This document shows positions 15,700 through 53,925 of a DNA stretch of 64,000 bases, piece after piece. The position numbers and the translations under genes are program-made. The notes below the pieces were generated by a model. The model ran no database searches and had not been told where the DNA came from. It was given only the letters and a program-made list of their open reading frames with translations. The first letter of the stretch is position 1. The number at the start of each line of letters is the position of its first letter. The DNA is taken from positions 44,144,281 to 44,208,280 of the forward strand of contig OX381718.1 in NCBI GenBank assembly GCA_947462335.1, given 5' to 3'. This DNA comes from Harmothoe impar. Lineage: Eukaryota > Annelida > Polychaeta > Phyllodocida > Polynoidae.

Positions 15700-16676
15700 A
15701 ATATGTGTCAATGGAATCAAATAGGTACCAATGCACCTCCATTGATGCCTATGCAAATACCATCTTGGCAGCCATCTTGAAAATTACCTGGATCAAAAAT
15801 CGGAGCCTACAAATGGATTCTACACCCCAGAAAACCCTATTATACATGTGTCATACAAGGAAATCGGACAATCTTGAGTATTTGGTGGCCATCTTGGCAG
15901 CCATCTTGGAAATTTCTCGGATTAAAAATCTGAGCCTGAAAATGGATTCTACATCCTAGAAACCCCTATTATCCATGCATCACACAAGGAAATCAGACAA
16001 TCTTGAGTTTTTGGTGGCCATCTTGGCAGCCATCTTGGAAATTTCTCTGATTGAAAATCTGAGCCTGAAAATGGATTCTATATCCCAGGAAACCCTACTA
16101 TCTATGTGTCACACATGGAAATCAGACAATCTTGAGTTTTTGGTGGCCATCTTGGCAGCCATCTTGGAAATTTCCCGGATTGAAATTGTGAGCCTGAAAA
16201 TGGATTCTACATCCCAGAAACCCCTACTATCCATGTATCACACAAGAAAATCAGACAATCTTGAGTTTTTGGTGGCCATCTTGGCAGCCATCTTGGAAAT
16301 TTCTCGGATTGAAAATCTGAGCCTGAAAATGGATTCTATATCCCAGAAAACCCTACTATCCATGTATCACACATGGAAATCAGACAACATTGAGTTTTTG
16401 GTGGCCATCTTGGCAGCCATCTTGGAAATTTCTTGGATTGAAAATCTGAGCCTGAAAATGGATTCTATATCCCAGAAAACCCTACTATCCATGTATCACA
16501 CATGGAAATCAGACAACCTTGAGTTTTTGGTGGCCATCTTGGCAGCCATCTTGGAAATTTCCCGGATTGAAATTGTGAGCCTGAAAATGGATTCTACATC
16601 CCAGAAAACACTACTATCCATGTATCACACAAGGAAATCAGACAATCTTGAGTTTTCGGCAGCCATCTTGGCAGTC
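15700..16676 (+). repeat. 129-bp minisatellite with paired YY1-like motifs
   Basis: ATCTTGGCAG recurs at 15762, 15891, 16020, 16149, 16278, 16407, 16536 and 16665, a constant period of 129 bp. Each unit carries GGCCATCTTGG and AGCCATCTTGG, whose complement CCAAGATGGC is close to the YY1/Pleiohomeotic site CAAGATGGC. Because 129 is divisible by three, a 43-residue repeat ORF stays open on the plus strand (15705-15959 and 15975-16901), broken by one TAG. No signal peptide, domain or splice context supports coding. Confidence 0.9.
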
Positions 16677-16727
16677 AGAGGGAGGAGGAGGGGGCAGAAG
16701 GAGGGAAAGCAGAGGGAGGAGAAGGTA

Positions 16728-17430
16728 CCTGGGGGGGCCACTCCCTCAGCCTTACTGACTAGGCCAAAAAAAAAAAAAGGTTTGTTTCCGGTCACCCGAC
16801 CGGGTCTAGCAAAACAGGGCCGGGTCCCCCTCTTTTCTTCTCTTTTTCAAATCTTTCCCTACATACCAGTTTTTACGGTTTGTAAATCGGATAATTTTTA
16901 AGGATTTTAGAGGAAAAACGCTAAAAATAGGCCTAAAATGAGAAAATTAAAAAAGAAAATTAAAAAAGAAAAAAAAAAATCCGACCGGCCGGGTCTGGGT
17001 TGTCTGACCATGTTACCGGAAACCAACCTTTTTTTTTATTTGGCCTTATGTGTGAACACGATTCCAAGGGAAAGGGTATGTTTTTAGACCTTAGGCACGG
17101 ACCCGTGAGGGCCCTTGGATAGGGCTGCTTTTTGGGCAAATTTGGAGAATAAGGGGTACATATTAAGGCCCAATGACTAAAAGAACTGTTCAGATGAAAC
17201 TTGTGTACGTATTTTCTCTACATAAGAAATATAAGAGTATATTTTAAGCCTACCTTTTTTTGTAATTTTCTTTGATTTTCCTTGGTCACCCTTTAAAAGG
17301 GTATGTCTTCTGTTAATTTTCCCGTAAAAAGGGTGCTATTTTGTTGATTAGTCTCCCGTGATAAGGGTGTCAAATTTGAGGTGATGTTCACACATAGTTA
17401 CTATAGAAAAGATAGGGAGTGGCCCCCCCG
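16728..17430. mobile_element. Non-autonomous DNA transposon with 10-bp target duplication
   Basis: Inverted ends GGGGGGGCCACTCCCT (left) and AGGGAGTGGCCCCCCC (right) are flanked by the identical 10-mer GGAGAAGGTA at 16718-16727 and 17431-17440. The surrounding purine-rich minisatellite continues on both sides. A 9-11 bp duplication fits Mutator-like elements; the class is inference. A second element (16761-17046) lies inside it. A related end fragment lies at 42421-42545. Confidence 0.75.
16761..17046. mobile_element. AGGCC-family MITE, copy 1 (nested)
   Basis: Inverted ends AGGCCAAAAAAAAA and TTTTATTTGGCCT, followed inward by TTTCCGGTCACCCGACC and its counterpart GTTACCGGAAAC. Other copies lie at 47382-47745, 53926-54160 and 62957-63213. 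The middle shares a TTTTTACGGTTTGTAAATCGG block with elements at 45392 and 56583. Confidence 0.75.
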
Positions 17431-20406: not shown

Positions 20407-21083
20407 GGACTTACACAGACATAAAGGGTCAGAGATTTGCCCTTTTTTGCTTTATTCATTGAGATGATAGTATATTAACCCCCTTTCCTACTTCTCACTG
20501 ACATTTGGCTGAAAAAGACCCCCTATTTGTGAATTTCACGGACGTGCAGAGTGAGTTAAAAAGTACCCCTTTCTCGGCGTTTTGGTAACCTCTGTAGTAA
20601 CCTCTTTTTTAAAAGGGCCGCGTTGGCCTATCGATTTTTTAAATGGCTGTGTTGCCATGTCGCCCGTGTCGTTTTTTACCCATGTAGGGGCACAACTCTT
20701 CACGTAGCCATGGGTAGTTGTCATTGGAGGGGATTGTGGTGCCAAGATACACATACTAGTCTACTCATACTACCTTCGGGATCGGCACATCTCATATTAA
20801 CACATCATCATTTTGGTAAGAATATCATATTTATCTGTCAGTGGTTTCGGCGAGTCAATCCCTCACAACAGAGTTCTGTTAAGTGGATTCTTTCATACTA
20901 GTTATTTCTCTCTGCATGGTGTACTGGGATATTTCATGTACAGCAGTGCACACTCTTATGCAATATTTTATCTTTGATGCAGTTGACCAACTTCGCCGAT
21001 CGCGAAACACCGCAGAAGATGAAATCTACGTGAAAAAATGCCAACTTTACATCAAAATATTGTTTTATTGCTAAGTATTTTCA

Positions 21084-21163
21084 TTAACCCTTTCACCACT
21101 GGGTTTCTTGTAACTCAATGCAATTTTGTGCAATATATTGGCTTACCGTGTGGAAGGGGTTAA
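21084..21163. mobile_element. 72-bp TTAA-flanked mini-element, absent from copy B
   Basis: TTAA at 21084-21087 and 21160-21163 encloses 72 bp starting CCCTTTCACCAC and ending GTGTGGAAGGGG, which are imperfect inverted ends. The matching place in copy B (about 28117) has a single TTAA (TTCATTAAACTAAC), a precise empty site. Confidence 0.88.
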
Positions 21164-21783
21164 ACTAACAACAGGAGTTATCACCATTTTTAGTAGGGAA
21201 TACAACAGAACAAAAATTGAAATGGTACACTAATGAAAATTAGGTTCTCCAAAGGTTCACTTTTTTTGGGAGAATCTCAGTTTTTTTTCAGTTTTTCAAA
21301 GAAATCTCTTATTTTAGGTGATAAAACTTATTTTTTTCCCATTTCTTTTGACACATAGAGATTCCTGAGGTGTTTTGCAACAAAATGATATAGCTCAAAT
21401 AGTTCACATGATAGTGCATCAAGGTGTAATAGATGAGAGAAAAGAGGTCTGCACGAAAAAACAGGGCTTGACCTAGTTTCACAGCGTTACAGAGAACATA
21501 GCCCACTCCAATTACGAAAAAATCGTAACACTTGACATCCCTGGCTTTAGGAGATCATATTGAAACTGAAGGTCACAACGCAGTGACACGTGAGGACCCT
21601 GGAGGGGACCTGGATATTGGGTATATAATAATCATTGCACTGATGAAATATTATTGATTATGTTTGTTAATTAATTACAATTTACTATGTTTATTAGAAT
21701 ACTTTATATTCATGCATTACAATCGGTTACAGGTATAACTGTTCTAGTTAAGGTTTTGGTTTATGTATACAAATATATATCTA

Positions 21784-21968
21784 TACCGTATTCGACGTAA
21801 TAAGCGCACAGTGCGCTTAAAAAATTATCATGGACACCATTTAGTAGTTAAGAGTTTAATTGGGGTCAAAAATTGAGAAATTTTTGGTTATTTCTAGTAT
21901 AAGAATCAGCCCAAAAAGGGGTGTGTGCGCTTATTAGGGGGTGTGCGCTTATTACGTCGAATACGGTA
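21784..21968. mobile_element. TA-flanked MITE (ACCGTATTCGACGTAATAAG ends)
   Basis: Long inverted ends, TACCGTATTCGACG... and ...CGTCGAATACGGTA, enclose about 185 bp; TA at each side suits Tc1/mariner/pogo-type insertion. The second copy lies at 28755-28939 by duplication. Confidence 0.8.
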
Positions 21969-23044
21969 TATATATATTGAATTGTCCATATTAAACTATC
22001 AGCAAGTGGTCATAAAAGCACCGTGAGTTCCGAGCCTATGGAGAACGCACGATCGGAAACTATTTTGATACGCAGCCATCTTCGGCAGCATTTGGAACGT
22101 GTTCGGCCGTCCTCTGAGGTTTTCTGCATGACTACGGCGGGTCTCGGGCCAACCTCGGCAGACCGCCAACCGCTAAGCCAATCAAAACGCCTATTAGATT
22201 TCTGCCCAATCAGAGTTCTCCTGACAACTTCACGTCCACAGAATTTCCCGCGGATCACGGCACATTGGAGTCGTGCAAAATCTAAACAGGAACGTATTGT
22301 TTGCATTTCAAAGTTTTGTTTCAATTCTTTGAATTTCCATTTAGTACACTGTAATTCGGTTTTATACCATTCCAATACTACCAACACTCCCTAGTCCACA
22401 TAAAGCTGTGAGAAACCTTCAGTTCTGTGAAGATATAAGAAGGTAGGAGGTGAATTCGGCTATTAGAGCATCTCGAAAAGCGTCTCAAAGAATATTCTGT
22501 GTAAAGTGCAGATTGGTGAAGGTTGCTGCTTTATTTAGATCCCTATGCTATAACATTTAAGGCCAAATCTGCTTTTTTATGATTTTGTTATGTTTTTTCA
22601 ATCCCATTTTTCAACTATAGATATTGCTTGGATTCATTCCGGGATAGATCTTAGGTATTGAGATTGAATGAAAGTCGCAACATGCAGGATTTTTGCCTTA
22701 GATTTCGCACTATTTCATGCTGAAAAACCGTTATAACTTTCACTGAAATTTTGCAGAATTTCGCTAAAACACCTGTCGTATAAGAAACTGCGGGCACAGC
22801 GGTACCCTGGTTCAATAAAGCGAAGATATGATTGGATAACCTGGCTGACTGTCCATACAGGTTGGGAGCCGGTGCCTCATCGGAATAGCACCACACCACA
22901 GTTTAAACAACACTTTCTGCGCCTTGTCGCCAATCTCCTGCGAATTATACTAAACCATCACTAATGATGTACTCTGCTTTAGTAAGTTTCAATTGACATT
23001 TCAACCAGCCACAAAAAACTAGGTGGGGAGGAGCAGTATGAAAA

Positions 23045-23850
23045 ATATCCTGCCTTCCACCTAATACCACCTGCCAGCCACTATACCTCCTGCCACCCAC
23101 TATACCCCTACCACGCACTATATGCCCCCTGCCACCCATTGCACTACCACCACCTAATGTACCCCTGCCACCCACTGTACCACCTGCTACCCACTGCACT
23201 ACCATAAAACCTCGCGGATAAACCTAACTCGCGTATAAGCCGCACCCTGAGTTTGGGCCGATCCTATAAGCCGCAGAGGCCTCCTGAATGGTCCCTAAGA
23301 AAAACATGTACCAGTTATGTGGGGGTCATCCTTCACTGCCTGCCCCCCCCCCCCACACACACACCCTGAGTGATGCCCAAGCTGTGAGAATGCTTGTGTT
23401 GCAACCTACTACCAGCACTCTTCTGAGCTTTTATAGAGGAGGTGTGAAGATATATAGCATCAACACTGCCCACTCACCCTTGTGAGCCACAACCCCCAAC
23501 CCCCCACCCCCTCGCAGTCCCTGCAGCTCATGGGGAATCTAAGGAATTTTGGAAATTATGCTTTGGAAAAACTTGTGTATAAGCCACACCCTGAGTTTGG
23601 GCATATCCTATAAGCCGCACTGGCGATCTGACTCGCGTACTAGCCGCAGCTTCTACACGAGGTTTTACAGTACCTGCTACCCAATGTATCATCTGCCACC
23701 CTTGTTACCAGCTGCCACCCTCTGTACCAGCTGCCACCCAATGTACCCCTTGCCCCCAATGTTGCCCTGCTTTACCATACACCACCTGCCACCCAATATG
23801 ACATCTGCCACCCACTGTATCATCTGCCACCCTCTATACCACCTACCACC
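23045..23850. repeat. CTGCCACCCA minisatellite interrupted by a TA element
   Basis: Imperfect units of about 19 bp (CTGCCACCCACTATACCAC) occupy 23045-23199 and 23673-23850. Between them, 23200-23672 has inverted ends TACCATAAAACCTCG and CGAGGTTTTACAGTA with TA borders and internal GTATAAGCCGCACC motifs. The same arrangement recurs in copy B, with the element at 30171-30643. Confidence 0.8.
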
Positions 23851-25648
23851 CAAGTAACCCCTCAAGTTTTGTCTCCTTTTACACTGCCGGTATGCCCATT
23901 GGTATTATGGAAGGCTCCCGATGAAGTTATTCTACTCCTTCACGCCCCCATCATGAAGGTCCCCACTAACACAGGGAGACAAAACACCATTCAGCAGGGA
24001 GCATCGAAATGGGAACAGTTCACCCTGCACAATATTTTGAGGCATAAGTCTTAACTGCCCTACCGGACAAAAATTACAAAGCCGATAGTTTAAAAACCAT
24101 TATTCTCATGGTTTATGTTATATAATAATTACACAAGCCTGCCTTACTACCGTCAATTCTTGTGTATAATCCACATCTCACCTATAACACGCACCTGTTT
24201 CTGTTTCGTCTATAACCCGCTGTTTATATATGGGAATTTAATTAAGACATATATTATAAAGGCAAACAAGCATGTATAGAGTTAGCAGTTGAGGCATAGG
24301 CTGGGAGGCATGTAGTGAGAATAAGTGTACCAGGGCTTGGTAGTAAGTAAGTAGGTCAGCTGTTATACACAAGCAGGCATACAGGTATGTAAGTAGGGCA
24401 ATGTCGATACACCAGTGACCAGATGGGTTACTGCGTGCGCGTACAACAGGGAGTGGTTTATCCACCATGTTGAAGCTAACAGTGTTGGCAATAGAGGCCC
24501 CAAGTGCTGCATATGGAGGTTACATTTGGTCTGTGTGAGAAATGCTGTATTGTTCACGCACACGACTAGCTGCTATAGCTACCTATATTTGGCAAAACTG
24601 ACCAATATCGTGTGGCACACGTGGCAAACTACGGGCCTAACGCCATTTCACGTATTCAGTCACAACTCACCTATAGTTTACCTAATAAGCTGACCCATAG
24701 TTATTGAATACCAACTAACCAATGATGTGCGTAAAGAGCATACGAAAAAAACAGGTGTGCACCTGGAACCTCAGACACCTACCTCTCCCATGCGACACGA
24801 CCACTATACTACCTCGAAATGTCTAGCTGTTGGGCTCCTTCAACATAATGAGGTTTGGCCCCTTGCCAGCTAGTGTGCTATTTCTGGACCTCACTTTGAG
24901 GTCACGGCCTTCTGGTTGAAGAAGCGCTTTCCTGGTAGTACCACTGACTGTAGCCATAAACTCCTTATGTATATTAACTCTCCCACAGTATATAGCTGCA
25001 TATAACACTGTACATGTATATATATTTTGCACACACTATATTTCAGAATTAGGATGACTTGAATTGCTCGGTTATAAATGTATACATTATGCAGGTGTCC
25101 CTCACTACATCTGTTGATTCAATACACACAGGAACATGAATTCGCACTGGAGGATTATTGATTCTACGCTGTTGTACATTTCATTTGTATTGCATCACGA
25201 TAAGCGTGGGTCCAGTGTACAGGAGGAGGAATGCTAATAGCAATTCAAAGTACTGTAAACTTTCGTGTATAACCTGCATCTTGTGTATAACCTGCATCAT
25301 TAACTTTGCAATTGCCCATAACCCTGCACAGAGAGCCTAATTATTTCTATTCTAGTACTATACAATACTATAGATACCTCACCCCTTTAACCCACAGCCC
25401 CAACAAGAATATACAGCAGTCCAACATTATAGCACTCCAATGCACTATATGGGTATATATCTAAAACTGGACATCGACATCCATGTATCAAAGTCCTTCT
25501 AACTGAAAGCTATATTCAGTCTCATCAAAGTAGAAATCCATAGGTTGCTATATGAAGAAGAAAACCATGTTCATGCCTATGTGTGTGTCTGTGTGGGTGT
25601 ACATGAGTTTGTGTCCATGAGTGTCTGCATTCATGCTACAGGTCATAG

Positions 25649-25819
25649 GGTGTTTTTAGGCAAATTTCTCTTTTTTTGCGATTTTGAACTATTTTCTCGC
25701 CAAATCAGGTGTTTTTAGGCAAATTTCACTTTTTTGCGATTTTGAAATTTTTTCTCGCCAAATAGGTGGTTTTTAGGCAAATTTCACTTTTTTGCGATTT
25801 TGAACTTTTTTCTCGCCAA
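25649..25819. repeat. Tandem repeat of about 58 bp, three units
   Basis: Units of GTTTTTAGGCAAATTTC...TTTTCTCGCC; also present in copy B at about 32620-32790. Confidence 0.85.
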
Positions 25820-28800
25820 CAGCTGCGGAATCTGCCTCCAACGGTGATCCTATTGATGGACTCTGGATAGACCCATGCATAGTGAAGACCTACATAGTGG
25901 ACACGAGGTCAAGTTAAAAACTGCAAGTCACTTGTTTTGCAACTTGCACTGAACTGAACCTTATTAATAGCCCTTAACTGGGTTGTCAACAATCAATTAA
26001 ACTATGACAAAACTCCCTCTATTTCGGAGACCAAATACACAATCAAATGATATATATTTTTTCAAAATAACACCCTGTGTAGAATGGCCCGATACTCAGG
26101 AATCCTACTGTGAATAAGAAAAAGTCAAATTCGAATCATTAATACCTGAAAATTGAGAAATGCTGACGTTCACGGTTTATGTAGGAAATGTACTAAAAAC
26201 AGCAAAAAAAGGCAACAAAACCCTAATTTTCTCAAAAACTGTTCAGTAGGATTTTTTCTAACTGAGGTTCCAGTGTTTTCTACCCTCATATTACACATTG
26301 GCATAGAGAATATATTGACACCTAGTCAGGATTTTGCGCTAGAAGCGATCTGTGAAGCTAAACAGCCAAAATGAGCCACTGGTCTGAAGTATATAACTAA
26401 GCATCGATCACTATAGAGCCACAAAGAGACAGAGAATCGATGTCCAATAACAATTGTGTATTTATACTCTCATCTGGGGTCATATAAGCCCACTGAGTTA
26501 TATGTAGGAATCTAATGTTTGATTACATGTTGGGACTTAAAACCGTGTACAAGATTCCTCTGATCTACTGTTCTGGAAGGCTTGCTCATAACAGCAATTC
26601 ATCTCAACTGAACCTTCACCATAAATGACAGCGTAAATTCACGCGTATGACCTGTGAGGCTGATAATTTACACTTGACCCACATAAAGATTACAAAAAGG
26701 GTACTGCAGATAACAGAACTATAGAAAGGAGGGTTAGCCCTGATCTTTGAGTAAACAATTTCAAGTCACTAGACCAGCCCGGGTCAGCTCCGGTCCTCCC
26801 GGCATGAACTTGGGCAAACAGCCAGAGCTGCCACCGTGCTTCAAAACCTGTCGTGGTAGCGCGGCGCACCACAAAGTACCACAACCCTCGAAAATAGAAC
26901 ACCAACACGATGCGACATCGTTAAACGAAGCTCACGGTGTGTATTACCAGTATATAACAAATGTCGAAGTAGGCATATTCAGAAAGTCAGAAATACATTA
27001 CGAATTCTTCCAGCTTACCCTGAACAAAGCAATAATTTTCTTCAAAAATCATATACGTATGTATACATCTTCTGATATTTACTTTATATTGAAGAGGGTA
27101 TACATGTACAAGGCCTAAGAAAATGTTGTTTTTCAGGTAACTTGAACTACCAGCACCCTATCTTACTGGCGCTAGCCTTAAGTTATTTGTGCTTTTTTAA
27201 ACCAAAAAGTTTTTACAGGACCAAAATAAAAGTAAATTGTACAGTTAAGTGTGGGAACAAAATTCAATAATAAAATATTCCCATTTCCAAAAGGAATATG
27301 TATACAGGATTTAAACTGATAGTGTGTTCACTATAAACTGGGCCTTTCAATAATGCAGCTGTACCGTTGTGGAGTGGTAGCTTTTTTCATACAGTGCTGT
27401 AGTAATTACAGTGGCGAAACAATAACTGTAATACTGAACTGCGGACTTACACAGACATAAAGGGTCAGAGATTTGCCCTTTTTTGCTTTATTCATTGAGA
27501 TGATAGTATATTAACCCCCTTTCCTACTTCTCACTGACATTTGGCTGAAAAAGACCCCCTATTTGTGAATTTCACGGACGTGCAGAGTGAGTTAAAAAGT
27601 ACCCCTTTCTCGGCGTTTTGGTAACCTCTGTAGTAACCTCTTTTTTAAAAGGGCCGCGTTGGCCTATCGATTTTTTAAATGGCTGTGTTGCCATGTCGCC
27701 CGTGTCGTTTTTTACCCATGTAGGGGCACAACTCTTCACGTAGCCATGGGTAGTTGTCATTGGAGGGGATTGTGGTGCCAAGATACACATACTAGTCTAC
27801 TCATACTACCTTCGGGATCGGCACATCTCATATTAACACATCATCATTTTGGTAAGAATATCATATTTATCTGTCAGTGGTTTCGGCGAGTCAATCCCTC
27901 ACAACAGAGTTCTGTTAAGTGGATTCTTTCATACTAGTTATTTCTCTCTGCATGGTGTACTGGGATATTTCATGTACAGCAGTGCACACTCTTATGCAAT
28001 ATTTTATCTTTGATGCAGTTGACCAACTTCGCCGATCGCGAAACACCGCAGAAGATGAAATCTACGTGAAAAAATGCCAACTTTACATCAAAATATTGTT
28101 TTATTGCTAAGTATTTTCATTAAACTAACAACAGGAGTTATCACCATTTTTAGTAGGGAATACAACAGAACAAAAATTGAAATGGTACACTACTGAAATC
28201 ATGTCGAAAATTAGGTTCTCCAAAGGTTCACTTTTTTTGGGAGAATCTCAGTTTTTTTTCAGTTTTTCAAAGAAATCTCTTATTTTAGGTGATAAAACTT
28301 ATTTTTTTCCCATTTCTTTTGACACATAGAGATTCCTGAGGTGTTTTGCAACAAAATGATATAGCTCAAATAGTTCACATGATAGTGCATCAAGGTGTAA
28401 TAGATGAGAGAAAAGAGGTCTGCACGAAAAAACAGGGCTTGACCTAGTTTCACAGCGTTACAGAGAACATAGCCCACTCCAATTACGAAAAAATCGTAAC
28501 ACTTGACATCCCTGGCTTTAGGAGATCATATTGAAACTGAAGGTCACAACGCAGTGACACGTGAGGACCCTGGAGGGGACCTGGATATTGGGTATATAAT
28601 AATCATTGCACTGATGAAATATTATTGATTATGTTTGTTAATTAATTACAATTTACTATGTTTATTAGAATACTTTATATTCATGCATTACAATCGGTTA
28701 CAGGTATAACTGTTCTAGTTAAGGTTTTGGTTTATGTATACAAATATATATCTATACCGTATTCGACGTAATAAGCGCACAGTGCGCTTAAAAAATTATC

Positions 28801-31800
28801 ATGGACACCATTTAGTAGTTAAGAGTTTAATTGGGGTCAAAAATTGAGAAATTTTTGGTTATTTCTAGTATAAGAATCAGCCCAAAAAGGGGTGTGTGCG
28901 CTTATTAGGGGGTGTGCGCTTATTACGTCGAATACGGTATATATATATTGAATTGTCCATATTAAACTATCAGCAAGTGGTCATAAAAGCACCGTGAGTT
29001 CCGAGCCTATGGAGAACGCACGATCGGAAACTATTTTGATACGCAGCCATCTTCGGCAGCATTTGGAACGTGTTCGGCCGTCCTCTGAGGTTTTCTGCAT
29101 GACTACGGCGGGTCTCGGGCCAACCTCGGCAGACCGCCAACCGCTAAGCCAATCAAAACGCCTATTAGATTTCTGCCCAATCAGAGTTCTCCTGACAACT
29201 TCACGTCCACAGAATTTCCCGCGGATCACGGCACATTGGAGTCGTGCAAAATCTAAACAGGAACGTATTGTTTGCATTTCAAAGTTTTGTTTCAATTCTT
29301 TGAATTTCCATTTAGTACACTGTAATTCGGTTTTATACCATTCCAATACTACCAACACTCCCTAGTCCACATAAAGCTGTGAGAAACCTTCAGTTCTGTG
29401 AAGATATAAGAAGGTAGGAGGTGAATTCGGCTATTAGAGCATCTCGAAAAGCGTCTCAAAGAATATTCTGTGTAAAGTGCAGATTGGTGAAGGTTGCTGC
29501 TTTATTTAGATCCCTATGCTATAACATTTAAGGCCAAATCTGCTTTTTTATGATTTTGTTATGTTTTTTCAATCCCATTTTTCAACTATAGATATTGCTT
29601 GGATTCATTCCGGGATAGATCTTAGGTATTGAGATTGAATGAAAGTCGCAACATGCAGGATTTTTGCCTTAGATTTCGCACTATTTCATGCTGAAAAACC
29701 GTTATAACTTTCACTGAAATTTTGCAGAATTTCGCTAAAACACCTGTCGTATAAGAAACTGCGGGCACAGCGGTACCCTGGTTCAATAAAGCGAAGATAT
29801 GATTGGATAACCTGGCTGACTGTCCATACAGGTTGGGAGCCGGTGCCTCATCGGAATAGCACCACACCACAGTTTAAACAACACTTTCTGCGCCTTGTCG
29901 CCAATCTCCTGCGAATTATACTAAACCATCACTAATGATGTACTCTGCTTTAGTAAGTTTCAATTGACATTTCAACCAGCCACAAAAAACTAGGTGGGGA
30001 GGAGCAGTATGAAAAATATCCTGCCTTCCACCTAATACCACCTGCCAGCCACTATACCTCCTGCCACCCACTATACCCCTACCACGCACTATATGCCCCC
30101 TGCCACCCATTGCACTACCACCACCTAATGTACCCCTGCCACCCACTGTACCACCTGCTACCCACTGCACTACCATAAAACCTCGCGGATAAACCTAACT
30201 CGCGTATAAGCCGCACCCTGAGTTTGGGCCGATCCTATAAGCCGCAGAGGCCTCCTGAATGGTCCCTAAGAAAAACATGTACCAGTTATGTGGGGGTCAT
30301 CCTTCACTGCCTGCCCCCCCCCCACACACACACACCCTGAGTGATGCCCAAGCTGTGAGAATGCTTGTGTTGCAACCTACTACCAGCACTCTTCTGAGCT
30401 TTTATAGAGGAGGTGTGAAGATATATAGCATCAACACTGCCCACTCACCCTTGTGAGCCACAACCCCCAACCCCCCACCCCCTCGCAGTCCCTGCAGCTC
30501 ATGGGGAATCTAAGGAATTTTGGAAATTATGCTTTGGAAAAACTTGTGTATAAGCCACACCCTGAGTTTGGGCATATCCTATAAGCCGCACTGGCGATCT
30601 GACTCGCGTACTAGCCGCAGCTTCTACACAAGGTTTTACAGTACCTGCTACCCAATGTATCATCTGCCACCCTTGTTACCAGCTGCCACCCTCTGTACCA
30701 GCTGCCACCCAATGTACCCCTTGCCCCCAATGTTGCCCTGCTTTACCATACACCACCTGCCACCCAATATGACATCTGCCACCCACTGTATCATCTGCCA
30801 CCCTCTATACCACCTACCACCCAAGTAACCCCTCAAGTTTTGTCTCCTTTTACACTGCCGGTATGCCCATTGGTATTATGGAAGGCTCCCGATGAAGTTA
30901 TTCTACTCCTTCACGCCCCCATCATGAAGGTCCCCACTAACACAGGGAGACAAAACACCATTCAGCAGGGAGCATCGAAATGGGAACAGTTCACCCTGCA
31001 CAATATTTTGAGGCATAAGTCTTAACTGCCCTACCGGACAAAAATTACAAAGCCGATAGTTTAAAAACCATTATTCTCATGGTTTATGTTATATAATAAT
31101 TACACAAGCCTGCCTTACTACCGTCAATTCTTGTGTATAATCCACATCTCACCTATAACACGCACCTGTTTCTGTTTCGTCTATAACCCGCTGTTTATAT
31201 ATGGGAATTTAATTAAGACATATATTATAAAGGCAAACAAGCATGTATAGAGTTAGCAGTTGAGGCATAGGCTGGGAGGCATGTAGTGAGAATAAGTGTA
31301 CCAGGGCTTGGTAGTAAGTAAATAGGTCAGCTGTTATACACAAGCAGGCATACAGGTATGTAAGTAGGGCAATGTCGATACACCAGTGACCAGATGGGTT
31401 ACTGCGTGCGCGTACAACAGGGAGTGGTTTATCCACCATGTTGAAGCTAACAGTGTTGGCAATAGAGGCCCCAAGTGCTGCATATGGAGGTTACATTTGG
31501 TCTGTGTGAGAAATGCTGTATTGTTCACGCACACGACTAGCTGCTATAGCTACCTATATTTGGCAAAACTGACCAATATCGTGTGGCACACGTGGCAAAC
31601 TACGGGCCTAACGCCATTTCACGTATTCAGTCACAACTCACCTATAGTTTACCTAATAAGCTGACCCATAGTTATTGAATACCAACTAACCAATGATGTG
31701 CGTAAAGAGCATACGAAAAAAACAGGTGTGCACCTGGAACCTCAGACACCTACCTCTCCCATGCGACACGACCACTATACTACCTCGAAATGTCTAGCTG

Positions 31801-33661
31801 TTGGGCTCCTTCAACATAATGAGGTTTGGCCCCTTGCCAGCTAGTGTGCTATTTCTGGACCTCACTTTGAGGTCACGGCCTTCTGGTTGAAGAAGCGCTT
31901 TCCTGGTAGTACCACTGACTGTAGCCATAAACTCCTTATGTATATTAACTCTCCCACAGTATATAGCTGCATATAACAGTGTACATGTATATATATTTTG
32001 CACACACTATATTTCAGAATTAGGATGACTTGAATTGCTCGGTTATAAATGTATACATTATGCAGGTGTCCCTCACTACATCTGTTGATTCAATACACAC
32101 AGGAACATGAATTCGCACTGGAGGATTATTGATTCTACGCTGTTGTACATTTCATTTGTATTGCATCACGATAAGCGTGGGTCCAGTGTACAGGAGGAGG
32201 AATGCTAATAGCAATTCAAAGTACTGTAAACTTTCGTGTATAACCTGCATCTTGTGTATAACCTGCATCATTAACTTTGCAATTGCCCATAACCCTGCAC
32301 AGAGAGCCTAATTATTTCTATTCTAGTACTATACAATACCTATAGATACCTCACCCATTTAACCCACAGCCCCAACAAGAATATACAGCAGTCCAACATT
32401 ATAGCACTCCAATGCACTATATGGGTATATATCTAAAACTGGACATCGACATCCATGTATCAAAGTCCTTCTAACTGAAAGCTATATTCAGTCTCATCAA
32501 AGTAGAAATCCATAGGTTGCTATATGAAGAAGAAAACCATGTTCATGCCTATGTGTGTGTCTGTGTGGGTGTACATGAGTTTGTGTCCATGAGTGTCTGC
32601 ATTCATGCTACAGGTCATAGGGTGTTTTTAGGCAAATTTCTCTTTTTTTGCGATTTTGAACTATTTTCTCGCCAAATCAGGTGTTTTTAGGCAAATTTCA
32701 CTTTTTTGCGATTTTGAAATTTTTTCTCGCCAAATAGGTGGTTTTTAGGCAAATTTCACTTTTTTGCGATTTTGAACTTTTTTCTCGCCAACAGCTGCGG
32801 AATCTGCCTCCAACGGTGATCCTATTGATGGACTCTGGATAGACCCATGCATAGTGAAGACCTACATAGTGGACACGAGGTCAAGTTAAAAACTGCAAGT
32901 CACTTGTTTTGCAACTTGCACTGAACTGAACCTTATTAATAGCCCTTAACTGGGTTGTCAACAATCAATTAAACTATGACAAAACTCCCTCTATTTCGGA
33001 GACCAAATACACAATCAAATGATATATATTTTTTCAAAATAACACCCTGTGTAGAATGGCCCGATACTCAGGAATCCTACTGTGAATAAGAAAAAGTCAA
33101 ATTCGAATTATTAATACCTGAAAATTGAGAAATGCTGACGTTCACGGTTTATGTAGGAAATGTACTAAAAACAGCAAAAAAAGGCAACAAAACCCTAATT
33201 TTCTCAAAAACTGTTCAGTAGGATTTTTTCTAACTGAGGTTCCAGTGTTTTTTACCCTCATATTACACATTGGCATAGAGAATATATTGACACCTAGTCA
33301 GGATTTTGCGCTAGAAGCGATCTGTGAAGCTAAACAGCCAAAATGAGCCACTGGTCTGAAGTATATAACTAAGCATCGATCACTATAGAGCCACAAAGAG
33401 ACAGAGAATCGATGTCCAATAACAATTGTGTATTTATACTCTCATCTGGGGTCATATAAGCCCACTGAGTTATATGTAGGAATCTAATGTTTGATTACAT
33501 GTTGGGACTTAAAACCGTGTACAAGATTCCTCTGATCTACTGTTCTGGAAGGCTTGCTCATAACAGCAATTCATCTCAACTGAACCTTCACCATAAATGA
33601 CAGCGTAAATTCACGCGTATGACCTGTGAGGCTGATAATTTACACTTGACCCACATAAAGA

Positions 33662-36600: not shown

Positions 36601-36918
36601 GGTCCTCGTTAAAAATCCATTCGCGAATATAGAACGACTGTTTACTGTTCAAACCGCATCTGATCCATTTACAAATTTCACGAAAACACAGTTGTGTGCC
36701 CAACGGCTTCACTATGTACAAAAGGGTTAGCAAGCCGGTGCGAAATATGACGGCCGCAGGATATGGGGGAAACGTGAGCGTCCCGGGCCTCGTCTGAAGC
36801 GAAGCAACTTTGAATCGTCTGTTGTCATAAGGCTTTTCAAAGTCAACTTTAACTATGTATAAGACACACTAATGACAAGTAGCAGAGTACTGCTATGTTT
36901 AATCATTCCATTTAGAGA
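33662..36918. other. Exon-2-bearing segment present only in copy B
   Basis: The left edge (..CATAAAGAGTGCC) and right edge (..TTTAGAGATTAC) share AGA; copy A reads CATAAAGATTAC, a clean join at that 3-bp microhomology. Besides exon 2 the segment includes a CpG-rich patch at 36590-36840. The ORF at 35821-36012 ends in phase 1 and does not fit exon 2, so it is not called as an exon. Confidence 0.85.
34048..34206 (-). CDS. Zinc-finger gene exon 2
   Basis: A phase 0 exon of 53 codons, residues 29-81, with a strong acceptor (TTTTGTGTTTTGCAG) and donor (CAG|GTAACTGG). The product is rich in Pro, Tyr, Met and Gln (HHIYQPQPM, MYLPPPDYP) and continues in composition into exon 3. No domain is present. 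Intron 2, which separates it from exon 3, is 22.8 kb and includes copy A of the duplication. Confidence 0.83.
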
Positions 36919-38636
36919 TTACAAAAAGGGTACTGCAGATAACAGAACTATAGAAAGGAGGGTTAGCCCTGATCTTTGAGTAAACAATTTCAAGTCACTA
37001 GACCAGCCCGGGTCAGCTCCGGTCCTCCCGGCATGAACTTGGGCAAACAGCCGGAGCTGCCACCGTGCTTCAAAACCTGTCGTGGTAGCGCGGCGCACCA
37101 CAAAGTACCACAACCCTCGAAAATAGAACACCAACACGACGCGACATTGTTAAACGAAGCTCACGGTGTGTATTACCAGTATATAACAAATGTCAAAGTA
37201 GGCATATTCAGAAAGTCAGAAATACATTACGAATTCTTCCAGCTTATCCTGGACAAAGCAATAATTTTCTTCAAAAATCATTTACGTATGTATACATCTT
37301 CTGATATTTACTTTATATTGAAGAGGGTATACATGTACAAGGCCTAAGAAAATGTTGTTTTTCAGGTTATTTGAACTACCAGTACCCTATCTTACTGGCC
37401 CTAGCCTTAAGTTATTTGTGCTTTTTTAAACCAAAAAGTTTTTACAGGACCAAAATAAAAGTAAATTGTACAGTAAAGTGTGGGAACAAAATTCAATAAT
37501 AAAATATTCCCATTTCCAAAAGGAATATGTATACAGGATTTAAACTGATAGTGTGTTCACTATAAACTGGGCCTTTCAATAATGCAGCTGTACCGTTTTG
37601 GAGTGGTAGCTTTTTTCATACAGTGCTGTAGTAATTACAGTGGCGAAACAATAACTGTAATACTGAACTGCGGTCATACAAGATGGTCGGGGGGTGACTT
37701 TAGTTCATTTCTTCTCCATTGAATTGTATGGAATATATGGCTATTTGAACAATAATTCTTGGACAGACTCTAGTATTGATATCAAAGCTAAAGACCCTAC
37801 ATTTGGATCTGGTATAAATTACCGTAGATTCCTGTGTACTACCTGCATCTCGCATATAACCCGCACCCCGACTTTGGGATAATCCTTTAACCCGCACAGA
37901 GGATCAGAGTGCTCACCGGCGCAAACTCTCGTATAACCCGCACCTAGACTTGAAGAAAATTGCTAAATATTACCCATACCCTTCCCCTCCCCCTCCCCCG
38001 CCCTGAGAACAGCGAAATGCTCTCTACTTCCCCTCAGTTGCATAAGGTGGGTAAGGTGTGACCGCCACAGGTGCTCATGAACTGCAATACTGCCATGATA
38101 TTGAAAGTCGCAACTTGTTGTGTATATTTTTGTCAATAAACTTTTACAAAACTCAAACTCAAAACTTACTGAAGGGTTGAGGGGGGGGGGGGGAGCTGTG
38201 AGCGCCAAATAATAATACATGCATTCTACCTCCCTTGGGTAAGGGTGTGCTGGGGGTGGGGGGAGAAAGCTGTGGCCGCTAAAGGTTCCTGCAGTGAGAG
38301 GGGACTGATGGGGAGGTACCATTTCTAAAATAGAGGGTATAACCGTAATTTAGGCTATGATATGACCATAATTCGGTTATCAAATTGTCAGGTTTAACCG
38401 TAATTCTAAGAAAATGTATGACTGTAATTCTCTGAAAATGTATCACAGTAAGATATTCTTCTTGGTGGCATGCTCGTCAATCTTGGAGGGTTATGTCTTT
38501 TTTATACAGCAATTTTTCCCATGTAATTAATAAAATACCCACAAATTGGGAATACAACGAAATAAAAATTTGGTCATACTCCATTTGTAAGCAAGAATTA
38601 TGGTTATAGTGTGTGAATTTCATTTATACCTGAGCA

Positions 38637-42560: not shown

Positions 42561-44667
42561 TAGGGGAGCCCTGGGAGAATTGGGACAAAGGAGAACTGGG
42601 ACACTGTGTATTCTGCCCATAACCAATAAGTTTAATGCATAGCCACCGATGCTATTTTTTGGGCCAATATGACTCACTCTCACCAAATCAGTGCAACTAA
42701 AAAAGTGACGTACATGATCGGCGGACGTACATGATCGGCGGACGTACATGATCGGTGACGTACATGATCGGTGACGTACATGATCGGTGACGTACATGAT
42801 CGGTGATTATTGACTGCCCCAGTCTTTCTGATCATCATATAACATAAGTAAACCTTACCAAGGTGTTCATATAATGTCTGTATTGGTATTTAAAATGGTT
42901 TAAATGTGTAAATGATTCTAGTAAGAGTATTTTAAATGACATTTCAATGCCGATCATGTACGTCATGTGACGTACATGATCGGTGACGTACATGATCGGT
43001 GATTATTGACTGCCCTACTCTTTCTGACCATAATAAAACATTTATAAACCTTACCAAGGTGTACATATAATGTCTGTCTTGGTATTTCAAATGGTTTAAA
43101 TGTGTAGATGAGTCTAGTAAAAGTATTTTACATGACATTTCAATACCGATCATGTACGTCATGTGACGTACATGATCGGCCATTATTTATTGACTGCTTT
43201 AATTACCTTTTCTGACCATATTTAAAACATAAATCAATCATAGTGAGGTGTACATATGATGTAGGTCTAAATATGTGTAATCATAGACAGGTCAAGCAGT
43301 GGGTAAATAGGAAATTTTACATGACATTCCAAGCCGATCATGTACGTCATGTGACGTACATGATCGGTTACACATTGAGCCCCCCCCCTCCGGCCCCTAT
43401 AAATATTTTGGGAGGTTTTTTTTTCTAATAAACTCCCCAAAGATACATTACAGCCTGTAGGTATGGTTGGGAGAGATAAACATCGTAGTGCAGGGGGTAA
43501 AAAACGGATTTTGGACTCTGCCGATCATGTACGTCCGCCGATCATGTACGTCCGCCGATCATGTACGTCACTTTTTTAGTTGCACTGATTTGGTGAGAGT
43601 GAGCCATAATATTTAAGTTTTTTATAATAAAAAAAATTACTGTGATGTTATTACGTAGAACTATAACAGATTATAACATTTTTAGGGAAAAAGTTTTTTT
43701 TTCAGGTCTCTGACGATTAAATTTACGTACCAATAGCGTTACCTTTTGATGAGAAAATATTCTTATGTTGCATTAGGCCTATGTAGCATTGATAGTTGGT
43801 AAAATGACCAGCTACTTACAAAAACACAGTTAAGCATATTTTGAACTGTGGATAAGACCAGGCAGTTGCTACTCGCTTGCAATGCGACCACGATATAAGC
43901 TTTTAGTTAGAAGCCACCTACCACTTTGAATCTACCGCCCCAGTGGGGGTAGGTCTGCAGTGAGGTACCCTTTCTCTTATTGGTCCATTTTCCATAGGAA
44001 CCAGGAATGCTACACTCTGATAGGCTCTCTTGTGTAGATTCCTCCCAACCACCCCTGATACGGATCACCTGATTGGTTGATCCATCTTGCCCTTAAAATT
44101 TTTTTCTAGAACCCTCTTTAGGGTGGGACAAAAATTAAAAACATATTTTGAACTGTATCAACATTTTACTTAAAAATCTCAACCTGGGGAGAACTGGGAC
44201 ATTCATTGCAGGGAGAACTGGGACACTCTTCACTACCGGAGAGAACTGGGACACTCTGAGTGAAGTTTTATTGTGCTTTAATTATTTTTCTCTCAGACCT
44301 ATGACTGAAGCTAATATGTTACATATGATCATATTGAATGTAAAGTAAAGCAAAATGATGTTTCATTGGTTAATAATCACACTATTTACACTGTCCCAGT
44401 TCTCCCTGGTGTGTCCCAGTTCTCCCCAGGTAGTGTCCCAGTTCTCCTCGAAGTGTCCCAGTTCTCCCTGGAATTTCTCAAAATTTCAAAAGGCTCTAGA
44501 TGGATATCATGGCAGGCTAGGATGAATCTAAATAGTCCAAATGAAAGGTTTATTGGGAGCCTTTCTTCATGAAACAAAGGCATTTGGTTATTGTTGGCAT
44601 TGTAGAAATCACAAGCAAACATGTTATGATTTTAATTTAGTGTCCCAATTCTCCCAGGGCTCCCCTA
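42561..44667. mobile_element. TA-flanked non-autonomous transposon (2.1 kb)
   Basis: TAGGGGAGCCCTGGGAG at the left and CTCCCAGGGCTCCCCTA at the right are exact inverted ends of at least 25 bp, with TA at both borders. Many GGGAGAACTGGGACAC copies lie inward of the left end and at 44183-44250, and in inverse orientation at 44390-44475. TA borders fit the Tc1/mariner/pogo superfamily; no transposase remains. It contains the element at 42673-43603. Confidence 0.8.
42673..43603. mobile_element. Nested palindromic element with GACGTACATGATCGG hubs
   Basis: Inverted ends CTCACTCTCACCAAATCAG and its complement enclose three tandem units of about 190 bp. Each unit is joined by a near-perfect palindrome CCGATCATGTACGTCA-TG-TGACGTACATGATCGG (about 42952, 43146 and 43334), and GACGTACATGATCGG arrays flank both ends. 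No coding frame. No clear target duplication was found. Confidence 0.78.
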
Positions 44668-47807: not shown

Positions 47808-47813
47808 TTTATT
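47808..47813 (-). promoter_or_regulatory. Possible polyadenylation signal of the neuropeptide gene
   Basis: The minus strand reads AATAAA, 380 bp past the stop codon of the peptide precursor. The motif is common in AT-rich DNA, so this is only a candidate. Confidence 0.35.
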
Positions 47814-48192: not shown

Positions 48193-49848
48193 TTAGGCAT
48201 GCTCTCTTTTCTCAGCACGCTTGCCGAGCGTCAACAGGCGGTTTTCTTGGCCGTTATCCATCAAGTCTGAGAGCACATGGAGGGCGTTGTTCACAGACAG
48301 AGGTCCACGCTTACCGAGTGCCAACAACGGGTTGCCTTCACCACCTCGTCCTGCTTTGTATAAGTCAGATAGGACACTGAGTGGCTGATTCACGGATAAT
48401 GATTTCCTCTTACCGAGGGTCAAAAGACGATTGTGCTGCCTTGAGTTTCCCTTGTACATACCGGAGAGCACACTTAAGGGTTGGTTGACTGACAGAGAAG
48501 CCCGCTTGCCCAGAGCCAGTAGTGGGTTTTCACCTTTTTGAGAGTTGTACATTCCAGATAGGGCATACAAGGGCTGGTTGACCGATAGAGGTGCACGCTT
48601 TCCAAGAGCAAGCAGAGGGTTTTCACTTTTGTGTTGGTTATACATTCCTGAGAGTGCATGCAGGGGTTGGTTGACTGATAGAGCAGCACGTTTTCCAAGG
48701 GCAAGCAGTGGGTTTTCATTTTTGTCTTGGTTGTACATACCCGCAAGCGCATGCAGGGGTTGGTTGACCGATAGAGGAGCACGCTTTCCAAGGGCGAGCA
48801 GAGGGTTTTCACTTTTGTCTTGGTTGTACATTCCTGCAAGCGCATGCAGGGGTTGGTTGACCGATAGAGGAGCACGCTTTCCAAGGGCGAGCAGAGGGTT
48901 TTCACTTTTGTCTTGGTTGTACATTCCTGCAAGCGCATGCAGGGGTTGGTTTACTGATAGAGGAGCACGCTTTCCAAGAGCAAGCAGGGGGTTTTCGCTT
49001 TTGTGTTGGTTATACATTCCTGAGAGAGCATGCAAGGGTTGGTTGACTGAGAGAGCAGCACGCTTCCCAAGGGCAAGCAGTGGGTTTTCACTTTTGTCTT
49101 GGTTGTACATACCCGCAAGCGCATGCAGGGGTTGGTTTACGGATAGAGGAGCACGCTTTCCAAGGGCGAGCAGGGGGTTTTCACTTTTTTGGGAGCCATA
49201 CATTCCAGAAAGGGCATATAGGGGCTGGTTGACGGACAAAGGTGCGCGCTTGTCCATATCTTCTTCTGCAAACATATCATCAAAACTATCTCTCTTTCCC
49301 AGGGTAAGGAGACGGTTATTGCCGCCACGCCCGCCAGAAACCATATCCGAGAGAACACTCAAGGGCTGGTTGACGGAAAGCCGTGCCCGTTTTCCGAGTG
49401 ACAACAATGGGTTGTGCTCACTACCTCTGCTCCTGTACATATCAGCAAGAATACTAGCAGCCTGGTTCACTGACAGAGGTGCCCTCTTGTCTTCTTCATC
49501 GTGGAAATAGTCATCCTCGGTTTCATCAGCATCGTCCCGCTTCCCAAGCGCCAGGAGGGGATTCTCATTGTTGGCTCTGCTTCTATAGAGATCTGATAGC
49601 ACGCTCGTTGCTGAGTTCACCGAGAGAGGTGCACGCTTGGCTTCTTCCATGTCTCGCTTTCCCAAGGTGAGCAGCCGGTTCTTCTGTCCCTTACCTCTGT
49701 ACATCCCAGATAGGACTGACAGGGGCTGATTCACAGAGAGGTGAGCGCGTTTGTCATCCGCATTATTCTCTGAATGTAGCCCCTCATCAGCAACAATGGC
49801 CGCTACAGCGAAGATGCAGAGCAGCAAGGCTGAGGTCAAGGTCGCCAT
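48193..49848 (-). CDS. Multicopy amidated neuropeptide precursor, ELH/DH44/CRF-like
   Basis: A secreted precursor of 551 residues. The start chosen is the Met at 49848 because it opens a signal peptide (MATLTSALLLCIFAVAAIVA) and lies 8 nt after a splice acceptor (CTCTTTTCAAG); the longer ORF to 49974 reads intron. Fifteen peptides of 27-30 residues follow, each starting (A/K/G)-x-LSVN, with a hydrophobic L/M pattern, and ending NPLLALGKR or NRLLTLGKR: Lys-Arg cleavage and a Gly amide donor. Acidic spacers follow copies 1, 2 and 4. Copies 6, 8 and 9 are identical. The LSVNQxLxxLxxM start recalls Aplysia ELH (ISINQDLKAITDML) and insect DH44; assignment is inference. Neuroendocrine signalling through a class B GPCR would be expected if that is right. 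Confidence 0.9.
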   Translation of the reverse strand: MATLTSALLLCIFAVAAIVADEGLHSENNADDKRAHLSVNQPLSVLSGMYRGKGQKNRLLTLGKRDMEEAKRAPLSVNSATSVLSDLYRSRANNENPLLALGKRDDADETEDDYFHDEEDKRAPLSVNQAASILADMYRSRGSEHNPLLSLGKRARLSVNQPLSVLSDMVSGGRGGNNRLLTLGKRDSFDDMFAEEDMDKRAPLSVNQPLYALSGMYGSQKSENPLLALGKRAPLSVNQPLHALAGMYNQDKSENPLLALGKRAALSVNQPLHALSGMYNQHKSENPLLALGKRAPLSVNQPLHALAGMYNQDKSENPLLALGKRAPLSVNQPLHALAGMYNQDKSENPLLALGKRAPLSVNQPLHALAGMYNQDKNENPLLALGKRAALSVNQPLHALSGMYNQHKSENPLLALGKRAPLSVNQPLYALSGMYNSQKGENPLLALGKRASLSVNQPLSVLSGMYKGNSRQHNRLLTLGKRKSLSVNQPLSVLSDLYKAGRGGEGNPLLALGKRGPLSVNNALHVLSDLMDNGQENRLLTLGKRAEKREHA

Positions 49849-49856
49849 GATGTAAC

Positions 49857-51144
49857 CTTGAAAAGAGATGGAAATATTTTTGTTAGATTGACACTGACAC
49901 TTTTCACTTTTCATTCTGATGAGAATAATCCAAGTGACTGGTAAAGCTGAGAGAAAATTAAAGTGAAGGGTCAAACTTCAATCCACCTAATTATACATGT
50001 TCAAACCATCTATAATTTAGCTCATAATTATTTGACCAGATTTATGCTTGATGCAACTCTGGGATTCTCCATCTGCATGTGAAGAGAAAATATTGCATCT
50101 GTAGCAGAGGCTTTGGAAGAAACTTTCTATTAGCAGTGTATCTGATACAGGTCTGACACAACGGTTTGCATTGTTGTATGTTGTTCAACACATACACAAA
50201 TCGATCTAGGAATATATATGGGAATGTAGTGATAATTTTAGCAAAGTGCCTCAATCTGGGATATAGGTTTCTATGTAGGACTATGTATATGGAAAGTAAT
50301 GATAATTTGAGCTCCCCCGCCCATTCCCACCGTTCTGTACACCACTGCAATGTGTTATCATCAGCAGATGCATACATATTGTACCTTAGTGGCCTTAGTA
50401 CGTTTTACATTTATTACCCACCCACTGGGAGAATCAATTTGCTTGTGCTGCCACCTGGTGCTGAATTCCTGTAGGTAGCTGGTTAGCTAAAGTGAGTCAC
50501 TAACATATAAGTAAGCATTGATGCCTTTGATTTTCAGTGCACAGATTTGAATGAGAAAATAATAAATATGTATGCAAGCACATGTCTAGTATACCCATAA
50601 AGTGCAATATTACTGATGCAGTACCCCATTCAGCATCCATACACTGTTTTAGCCTTATCAACCCCTGCCCATGGAGCTGGGCTAAATGTTGCCCTAGGAG
50701 AGGAGAGGGATGGGTGGGAGTCCTTTGTCTAATAAAGCTACTGTCTGGGAATCCACCCACCTGATGTGGGGGCTGTAAAAAGGGTCCTCACATGTACAAA
50801 CAACCCCAACACAATCATCTAAACCTTTATTTATGGGGTGATCTCTATGACCGGCAGGCATGAAAAGGGCTAACATGGGGCATATGTAGAGGGAAATGGT
50901 GGGAAAAAGTTAATGTATATTTTAACACTTTATATTACTAATTTGGAGGCAATAATTCTTCTTTCCCCTGACATTTATAAAATCGTTCATGGGGCAAACT
51001 GGAGGCATTTTTCTTGTCCATCCTGAGTCATAATTCGGACCTAATCTTATGAATGAGATGGTAAATATGATTGATACCGACACATTCTAAAGCCGGGTGA
51101 ACCAGAGTCCCTGAGGAAGGTGGACCATGGGTTTATATGCAGTT
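49857..51144. other. No gene seen; upstream of the peptide gene
   Basis: The splice acceptor at 49857-49858 implies at least one 5' UTR exon further upstream in this direction, but no promoter or exon was recognised. Short ORFs here show no domain. Confidence 0.5.
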
Positions 51145-52634: not shown

Positions 52635-53183
52635 CCTCCTCATTGCTACTGGTCTAATGTCATCTAATGTGACGGAGCCGCCCACAAAACTTAGCGACGT
52701 GCAAGCTTAAATGCCTTGGTATTTTCCCATTTTCACAGTTTTTCTGATGTGCCAAACCAGAGGCATTTGAACATGTCAGATTAAGTCCCGAGTACCTATA
52801 TATAGGTAGTTGCATTACACTTAGATACCAATTAGTTGATGAATATAATTGCCATTGCAGAAAACAATATTTTGGTATATGCTCTTTATGTTGTTCTTCA
52901 TAATTGTTCCGTTCATAGGGCTTTTAATACCATCAATTCATCACCATGGGATAGAAGTGCACGTATACTAAAGAAAATTGCCCTGCATGGGCAGTCCACG
53001 CTGACCAAATAGCGTTCTAGATGTTTATTACCCTGCATGAATGCAGCCCTGGCGATGCTTTTATCATGTTAACTCAGGGGACGTACCCTATAGGTACGAC
53101 AGTCTATAGGGCCTTAGCGAGATGACCAGTGGTCAGTGCCATTTCCACTGGTACTAGGCCTATTCCCAGTACCCACAGCAACA

Positions 53184-53587
53184 AGCTTAGCCAAATCTCG
53201 TGGCCGAGATTAGGGTACAAGCAAGGTGCAGGTATTGTGAATAGCTTGTAACTGGACAATACTCATATCACCTAGTCCTGGATAGGGTAGTGGTTAGCAC
53301 TGTGGACTCATGATGCAGAGTCCCTGAGTTCAATTCTCTTCCAGGCAATGCATGGTAATCAAATTTATAAGTAAAGCTATTTTGGAAACAGAATACATTA
53401 TTCATAATACTAAAGAAAATTTAGAAATATATAGGGATTTGAACTTGGGCTCCCAGCATTATGAGTCCACAGTGCTAACCACTACCCTATCCTGGACAAG
53501 GTGATATGAGTATTGTCCAGTTACAAGCTATTCACAATACCTGCACCCTGCTTGTACCCTAATCTTGGCCACGAGATTTGGCTGAGC
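53184..53587. repeat. Large inverted repeat with tRNA-like arms
   Basis: Arms of about 155 bp (53184-53338 and 53431-53587) are near-exact reverse complements around a 92-nt loop; weaker symmetry extends to about 53105 and 53665. Each arm holds TAGTGGTTAGCACTG and GAGTTCAATTCT/AAGTTCAAATCC, which resemble RNA polymerase III A and B boxes, and CTCATAATG, an anticodon-loop-like CAT. CCTGGA and TCCAGG could form an acceptor-like stem. This is best read as two head-to-head tRNA-derived SINE copies, not a functional tRNA. Confidence 0.8.
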
Positions 53588-53925
53588 TGGTTCTTGCACA
53601 GCAAAGGGTTATGATTGTGACCAGTGGTCCAAAAGGTGGAGCCACTATATCTCGCTAATGCGGAATAGTATCGGAGCGGCACCCTAGGCATCCAGGTTAC
53701 ATGTATCATTGTCAGGGTATATAATATTATTACGATGAATAACGTGACCATTATTTGACTGGAAAGACACCTTCCTGTCACCATACTTTTCCACCAGGCT
53801 TCTCAGAGTATACCATTTGACCCCAGATCAATATTGTTTAGCCTATATACAATGGTCATCCCAGGTACTCAATCAGACAGCTAGTGTCTATGGGAATGCA
53901 GCTTATATCTATACTATATAATAGA

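Follow-up and report, generated by a model that had tools for sequence, protein, structure and literature searches.

The question raised by this locus is whether a gene that encodes many short, predicted amidated peptides in a single reading frame can belong to the CRF/DH44/ELH family, in which peptides of ~35-46 residues with a helical middle are expected, when its own peptides are 27-30 residues long. The gene is found at positions 48193-49848 on the minus strand of the window, which is the whole stretch of DNA that was analysed (64,000 nucleotides). We propose, at a probability of roughly 0.85, that its product is a secreted precursor holding many copies of DH44/ELH-type (CRF superfamily) neuropeptides and that the predicted cleavage and amidation would release peptides with two end modules that act on a class B receptor. 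The open frame, the anatomy of the units, the purifying selection, and the family relation through relatives are directly supported.

The coding sequence is an uninterrupted frame of 551 amino acids and a stop, with the ATG at 49848 and the stop codon at 48193-48195. It starts with the leader MATLTSALLLCIFAVAAIVA, which is hydrophobic and resembles a signal peptide by eye, and a short N-terminal spacer that extends to the first KR (49753-49848 in all), and these are followed by 15 units bounded by dibasic sites. The earlier note, which names no strand, had described fifteen peptides with LSVN near the N-terminus and Leu-amide ends, and this description holds at the sequence level: LSVN occupies positions 3-6 in 15/15 units, and all 15 are preceded by KR and end in Leu-Gly-Lys-Arg, where the GKR after the terminal Leu is a predicted amidation and cleavage signal. 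Nine of the units have 28 residues, four have 29, one has 30 and one has 27. There are 12 distinct peptides among them, as units 6, 8, and 9 encode the same peptide and so do units 7 and 11.

Reading along the minus strand, unit 1 (49663-49746; 28 residues, NRLLTL-amide type) is followed by the spacer DMEEA (49639-49653), unit 2 (49546-49632; 29 residues), an acidic spacer of 16 residues (49489-49536), unit 3 (49396-49482; 29 residues), unit 4 (49300-49386; 29 residues with a Gly-rich connector), and an acidic spacer of 13 residues (49252-49290). A central block of similar units, each 28 residues long, opens with unit 5 (49162-49245), continues with unit 6 (49069-49152), unit 7 (48976-49059), unit 8 (48883-48966), unit 9 (48790-48873), unit 10 (48697-48780), and unit 11 (48604-48687), and closes with unit 12 (48511-48594). 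The last three are unit 13 (48415-48501; 29 residues), unit 14 (48316-48405; 30 residues, with the longest connector, which is Gly-rich and has 8 residues), and unit 15 (48226-48306; 27 residues, with the shortest connector, of 5 residues). Spacers are present only at the 1/2, 2/3, and 4/5 junctions, the latter two being strongly acidic; units 3 and 4 adjoin directly, as do units 5 to 15.

Each peptide would consist of a 16-residue N-terminal module with the consensus x-x-LSVNQxLxxLxxM-x, a connector 5-8 residues long, and a module at the C-terminus, Asn-Arg/Pro-Leu-Leu-x-Leu, that ends in a predicted Leu-amide. The C-terminal module reads NRLLTL in units 1, 4, 13, and 15 and NPLLAL or NPLLSL in the other 11. 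Within these last six residues (units at 48226-49746), Arg at position 2 pairs with Thr at position 5 in the former four units and Pro at position 2 pairs with Ala or Ser at position 5 in the remaining 11, and this coupling may define two peptide subtypes. Upstream of the ATG, a possible splice-acceptor AG (49857-49858, minus strand) was seen by eye behind a pyrimidine-rich stretch, 9-10 bases before the start codon, and a 5' UTR intron is possible. Downstream, a motif scan identified an AATAAA (47808-47813, minus strand) 380 bases past the stop as a possible polyadenylation signal; this motif occurs in the window at chance density (82 copies vs 88 expected). At 53596-53703 a further unit upstream of the gene was considered (tblastn E 0.029), but the match has neither LSVN nor GKR and was rejected as due to chance.

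Relatives of the precursor were sought among ~5.8 billion proteins, of which the best 7996 candidates were scored. Three relatives, all of them 'ena' records, were found among these scored candidates: P0002 (E 3.6e-112), P0003 (E 4.3e-17), and P0004 (E 1.2e-16). P0002 has 427 amino acids and matches 70% of the query at 50% identity; ten units are seen in it by eye, and a script finds nine with a Leu-GKR end and a length of 28-32 residues. The fifth unit of P0002, as read by eye, ends in ENPLLRRGKR without the usual last residues before GKR and is possibly a decaying copy. P0003 (312 amino acids) has six units by script that start with LS and end in Leu/Ile-GK, and four of the six read LSF(N/T)QDLxSxADM, an N-terminal module that we take to be nearer to mollusc ELH. 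The script finds five units in P0004.

P0003 matches the Pfam ELH family (the egg-laying-hormone precursor family) over five stretches at 40.5 bits, where the cut-off is 20. The match of P0004 to ELH is under this cut-off at 16.8 bits, and P0002 does not match ELH. The 551-residue precursor matches neither ELH nor CRF, and seven of its units and three of the relatives' units, when scanned singly, did not match any Pfam family. Because of this lack of a direct match, family membership was assigned through relatives and profiles. A profile of the four precursors reaches P0005, annotated as 'DH44 [Urechis unicinctus]', at E 5.3e-6. Judging from this echiuran annelid, the single relative that carries a name, and from the Platynereis precedent described below, the gene would come from a lophotrochozoan, probably of annelid-like kind. 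The Urechis protein carries two amidated peptides, starting RPLSVNQALVPLSNL and GMLSIDMPLGTLSSML; CRF is the sole Pfam match of the second (17.7 bits, below the cut-off of 22.1; E 0.0038), and the first has no Pfam match. TPP_enzyme_N is the one Pfam family that the precursor matches above a cut-off (32.3 bits over the full protein, against 26.8), but no stretch passes alone and the best covers 26 residues, and the match was rejected as summed repeat noise. The short matches to Ribosomal_L40e and Sigma_1_2 in the precursor and to DUF2664 in P0002, again with no stretch passing alone, were rejected for the same reason, and the remaining non-ELH matches of P0002-P0004 are all under their cut-offs. 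No CRF-family chain was returned from the PDB when the precursor, two unit profiles, and a single Urechis peptide served as queries, and a scan of viral contigs returned no relative.

The unusual shortness of the peptides is borne out when the core, counted from the LS motif to the C-terminus, is compared: it is 25-28 residues in the precursor units, 28-34 in P0003, 29-30 in P0004, 33 and 36 in Urechis, and 36 in CRF and urocortin 1. Length does not look strictly defining in this branch because the units of P0002-P0004 are also mostly 28-32 residues long. In the alignments, the units differ in length in the stretch bounded by residue 16 and the final six residues, except for one extra N-terminal residue in some of the relatives' units. 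We compared a profile of the precursor and P0002 units (A2, 19 sequences) with one of the P0003, P0004, and Urechis units (A3, 13 sequences). The two align over their full length with 97.5% probability, and when the C-terminal columns alone were shuffled the observed score was reached in 0/150 trials. With the final 7 or 8 residues anchored, the permutation fractions were 0.001-0.002 against A3 and 0.005-0.006 against Urechis alone, and the predicted amidated end is conserved between the precursor and the relatives' units. Since these last 7-8 residues are kept, the length has been lost from the connector and not from the amidated end. The earlier note had described a much shortened C-terminal half; the shortening stands, but its place is the connector, and the end itself is retained when set against the relatives' units (0.001-0.006).

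The connectors contain Gly, Asn, and Ser (16% glycine), and their mean helix penalty is 0.52, vs 0.29-0.35 in the middles of four canonical peptides with limits chosen by eye. In an AlphaFold single-sequence model of unit 6 plus its GKR, residues 7-18 form a helix that is followed by a break and, near the end, by a single short helical turn, at low confidence (mean pLDDT 62). The connectors look non-helical. A short connector did not appear in the text passages covered from the literature on short or many-copy forms (including PMC4200219 and PMC7737342), and it may be a new variant within the family.

We infer secretion, cleavage, amidation, a receptor, and a physiological role for these peptides as follows. 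Prohormone convertases would cleave at KR and each GKR end would be converted to a Leu-amide, which would yield fifteen peptides of twelve sequences, and the many copies would allow a large dose of near-identical hormone to be released. The hormone may serve in egg laying, in diuresis, or in the larva. By the two-site binding known for CRF, the amidated end would bind the outer domain of the receptor and the LSVN end would activate its membrane domain. In the sections of PMC10886364 that bear on this, CRF peptides are divided into an N-segment, a middle segment, and a C-segment that binds the outer domain of the receptor via the terminal amide. Urocortin chimeras in which the connector was cut from 11 to 4 residues have EC50 values of 0.6-50 nM, and the shortest has 4.6 nM (PMC10886364, as tabulated in Table 2). 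The core of this shortest chimera is 29 residues, one to four more than in the precursor peptides, and by analogy the peptides described here could still span the two sites of the receptor.

The leading view is a DH44/ELH hormone that works through a class B receptor, with altered receptor use as its main rival: the shortest chimera is active, but complete helical connectors alone are reported to be potent and the connectors here look non-helical. According to this rival, the peptides descend from DH44/ELH but have lost the helical connector and with it the two-site mode on the ancestral receptor, and they would signal through a class B receptor that has diverged or through some other receptor, or would serve as partial agonists or antagonists. 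The 5-8-residue connectors, with 16% glycine and few helix formers, would fit such a change, as would the break after the helix in the low-confidence model of unit 6 (pLDDT 62) and the statement, in the chimera study as reviewed in the relevant part of PMC10886364, that complete helical connectors alone were potent. The purifying selection on both end modules described below, the two-end design common to P0002-P0004, and the 4.6 nM chimera with its 4-residue connector (from the same part of PMC10886364) argue against it, and we consider it unlikely. Within the leading view of a two-site hormone, a stronger form can be put forward tentatively, namely that the peptides of this branch are the shortest natural CRF-superfamily hormones and are full agonists on a DH44/ELH receptor by means of two end modules and a probably non-helical connector of 5-8 residues. 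If this were true, the long helical middle that is thought to be essential in CRF peptides would be dispensable in nature, and the receptor would need a closer or more flexible placement of its outer and membrane domains.

A second rival is that the units are an unrelated lophotrochozoan peptide family whose likeness to ELH/DH44, an LSxN start with an amidated Leu at the end, arose by convergence. The units were compared with a reference profile of seven canonical CRF, DH44, and ELH peptides (A4), two of which were confirmed in PMC10886364. The relation to ELH/DH44/CRF peptides suggested by the earlier note is supported at the N-terminus by a comparison of unit and family profiles, the kind of check that it had named: by hhalign, A2 aligns with A4 over 16 N-terminal columns with 90% probability (E 1.6e-6), 0/200 column shuffles are as good, and the reversed control fails. 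The N-terminal motif common to CRF/DH44/ELH, [LI]S[VIF]-x-x-x-L/F-x-x-[LI], is present in the units. At the C-terminus, the global profile tests against A4 were matched by shuffles in 88/150 (A2) and 70/150 (A3) trials, and the anchored ends of the precursor and P0002 units gave a marginal 0.047-0.061. The view that the C-terminal module is demonstrably that of CRF was not borne out against A4 on these figures (88/150 shuffles; anchored 0.047-0.061), so the claim is made for the relatives alone; the amidated end may plausibly correspond to that of canonical CRF peptides.

The restriction of the direct match with canonical peptides to the first 16 columns, and the lack of a Pfam ELH or CRF match for the precursor and the singly scanned units, speak for convergence. 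It is opposed by the chain that leads step by step to a member of Pfam ELH (P0003) and a named DH44 (Urechis), and by the register-specific C-terminal likeness to the relatives' units. The C-terminal ends of the P0003 and P0004 units, anchored in the same way, match the canonical ones at 0.007-0.012, and unit 5 of P0003 and both Urechis units point to intermediates of 30-38 residues with full-length connectors. We regard convergence as very improbable, and the profile matches together with the Pfam chain through relatives make membership of the precursor in the CRF/DH44/ELH family well supported, though indirect.

Tandem Repeats Finder reports a 93-bp array of 8.4 copies with 85% matches at 48478-49256, which covers part of the gene; this regular array is a reflection of the central block, and divergence is greater among the outer units. 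When all 105 unit pairs are taken together, the first 16 residues have a pN/pS of 0.29 and the last 7 have one of 0.23, values that are descriptive only since the pairs are not mutually independent. In the central units 5-12, pS is 0.48 and pN is 0.03 (pN/pS 0.06), and in the seven outer units pS is 0.79 and pN is 0.24. Because synonymous change greatly exceeds replacement change, this is a real coding gene, and both end modules are under purifying selection. The plus strand of the repeat region also has an open frame, of 321 amino acids, which is open because the repeat period is a multiple of three. A non-coding minisatellite that is open in one frame by chance, to which the 93-bp tandem structure and the long open frames on the opposite strand might point, is largely refuted and has a negligible probability in light of the leader, the acidic spacers, the dibasic sites at every junction, the pN/pS values (0.06 in the central block and 0.23-0.29 overall), and the relatives with a like unit design in other records.

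The comparison with P0002 also bears on how the gene reached its present size. Like the precursor, P0002 has acidic spacers, and units 3, 4, 13, and 14 of the precursor are reciprocal best matches of units 3, 4, 1, and 7 of P0002, respectively. The order of the units is only partly colinear, as the partner of unit 13 is the first unit of P0002, and the unit-to-unit scores are close. Unlike the precursor, P0002 has ten units, one of them with the ENPLLRRGKR end, and by eye no expanded central block. Growth of the precursor through duplication in the middle fits these matches, because four outer units pair with units of P0002 and P0002 is without the expanded block. The gene thus illustrates how a hormone precursor may grow by internal duplication under purifying selection.

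Several other repeats were observed in the window. A direct duplication of ~7 kb is found at 20407-32639, where each of three 300-nt probes recurs with 100% identity (20407/27443, 21235/28206, and 25368/32340) with spacings of 6971-7036, and it is either a recent tandem duplication or an assembly artefact. A 129-bp tandem array at 15631-16704, with seven 300-nt windows in register at 61-100%, overlaps a 308-residue open frame on the plus strand (15975-16901) whose Pfam matches are all under cut-off, and is probably a minisatellite. The repeat pair at 26679-26978 and 36908-37207 is 98% identical and is possibly a mobile element; each copy overlaps a 123-residue open frame, which had no Pfam match in the one copy scanned. 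On the minus strand at 1784-4753 there are two C2H2 zinc-finger open frames, and the longer has one relative at 39% identity across 64%. Additionally, an inverted repeat lies at 53180-53592, in which the arms are 160 nt long, 91% complementary, and separated by 93 nt, and two 196-nt copies that are 92% identical lie head-to-tail at 42771-43162. No tRNA was found by the tRNA search, and all Rfam families stayed below their gathering scores.

Among the systems with which the precursor can be compared, vertebrate CRF and urocortin have one copy per precursor. Their peptides are like the units in having an LSx/ISx start, an amidated hydrophobic end, and two separate binding segments, and unlike them in having a 36-residue core with a helical middle (PMC10886364, from Tables 1-2). 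The natural short-connector peptides described here (core of 25-28 residues, where CRF has 36 and the shortest chimera 29) would be test molecules for two-site activation of class B receptors. P0003 differs from the precursor in its cores of 28-34 residues and its Pfam ELH match above the cut-off. Urechis DH44, the expression of which drops at one step of larval development in the part of its description covered, shares with the units the peptide start RPLSVNQALxxLSxL and has the amidated ends NFLNSI and NALASL; it differs in having two units and longer cores (33 and 36 vs 25-28). Multiple ELH peptides occur in some lophotrochozoan precursors (PMC5627052, in the passages concerned), and in the nemertean Lineus longissimus DH44/ELH is listed among the precursors with peptides confirmed by mass spectrometry (PMC8557429, in the portion covered). 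The earlier note had taken the copy number to set the precursor apart, and this did not hold: high copy number is not new in the family because the DH44-1 and DH44-2 precursors of Platynereis dumerilii hold 13 and 16 copies (PMC3890597, in the section on these precursors), and a mollusc survey gives 'up to 16' copies (PMC6425005, in the text covered). The Platynereis precursors are like the one described here in belonging to the DH44/ELH family, in being highly repetitive, and in their predicted amidated peptides, and the likeness is drawn on these features and on copy number (PMC3890597, same section). The published multi-copy DH44/ELH precursors of the Platynereis type are now extended to another sequence.
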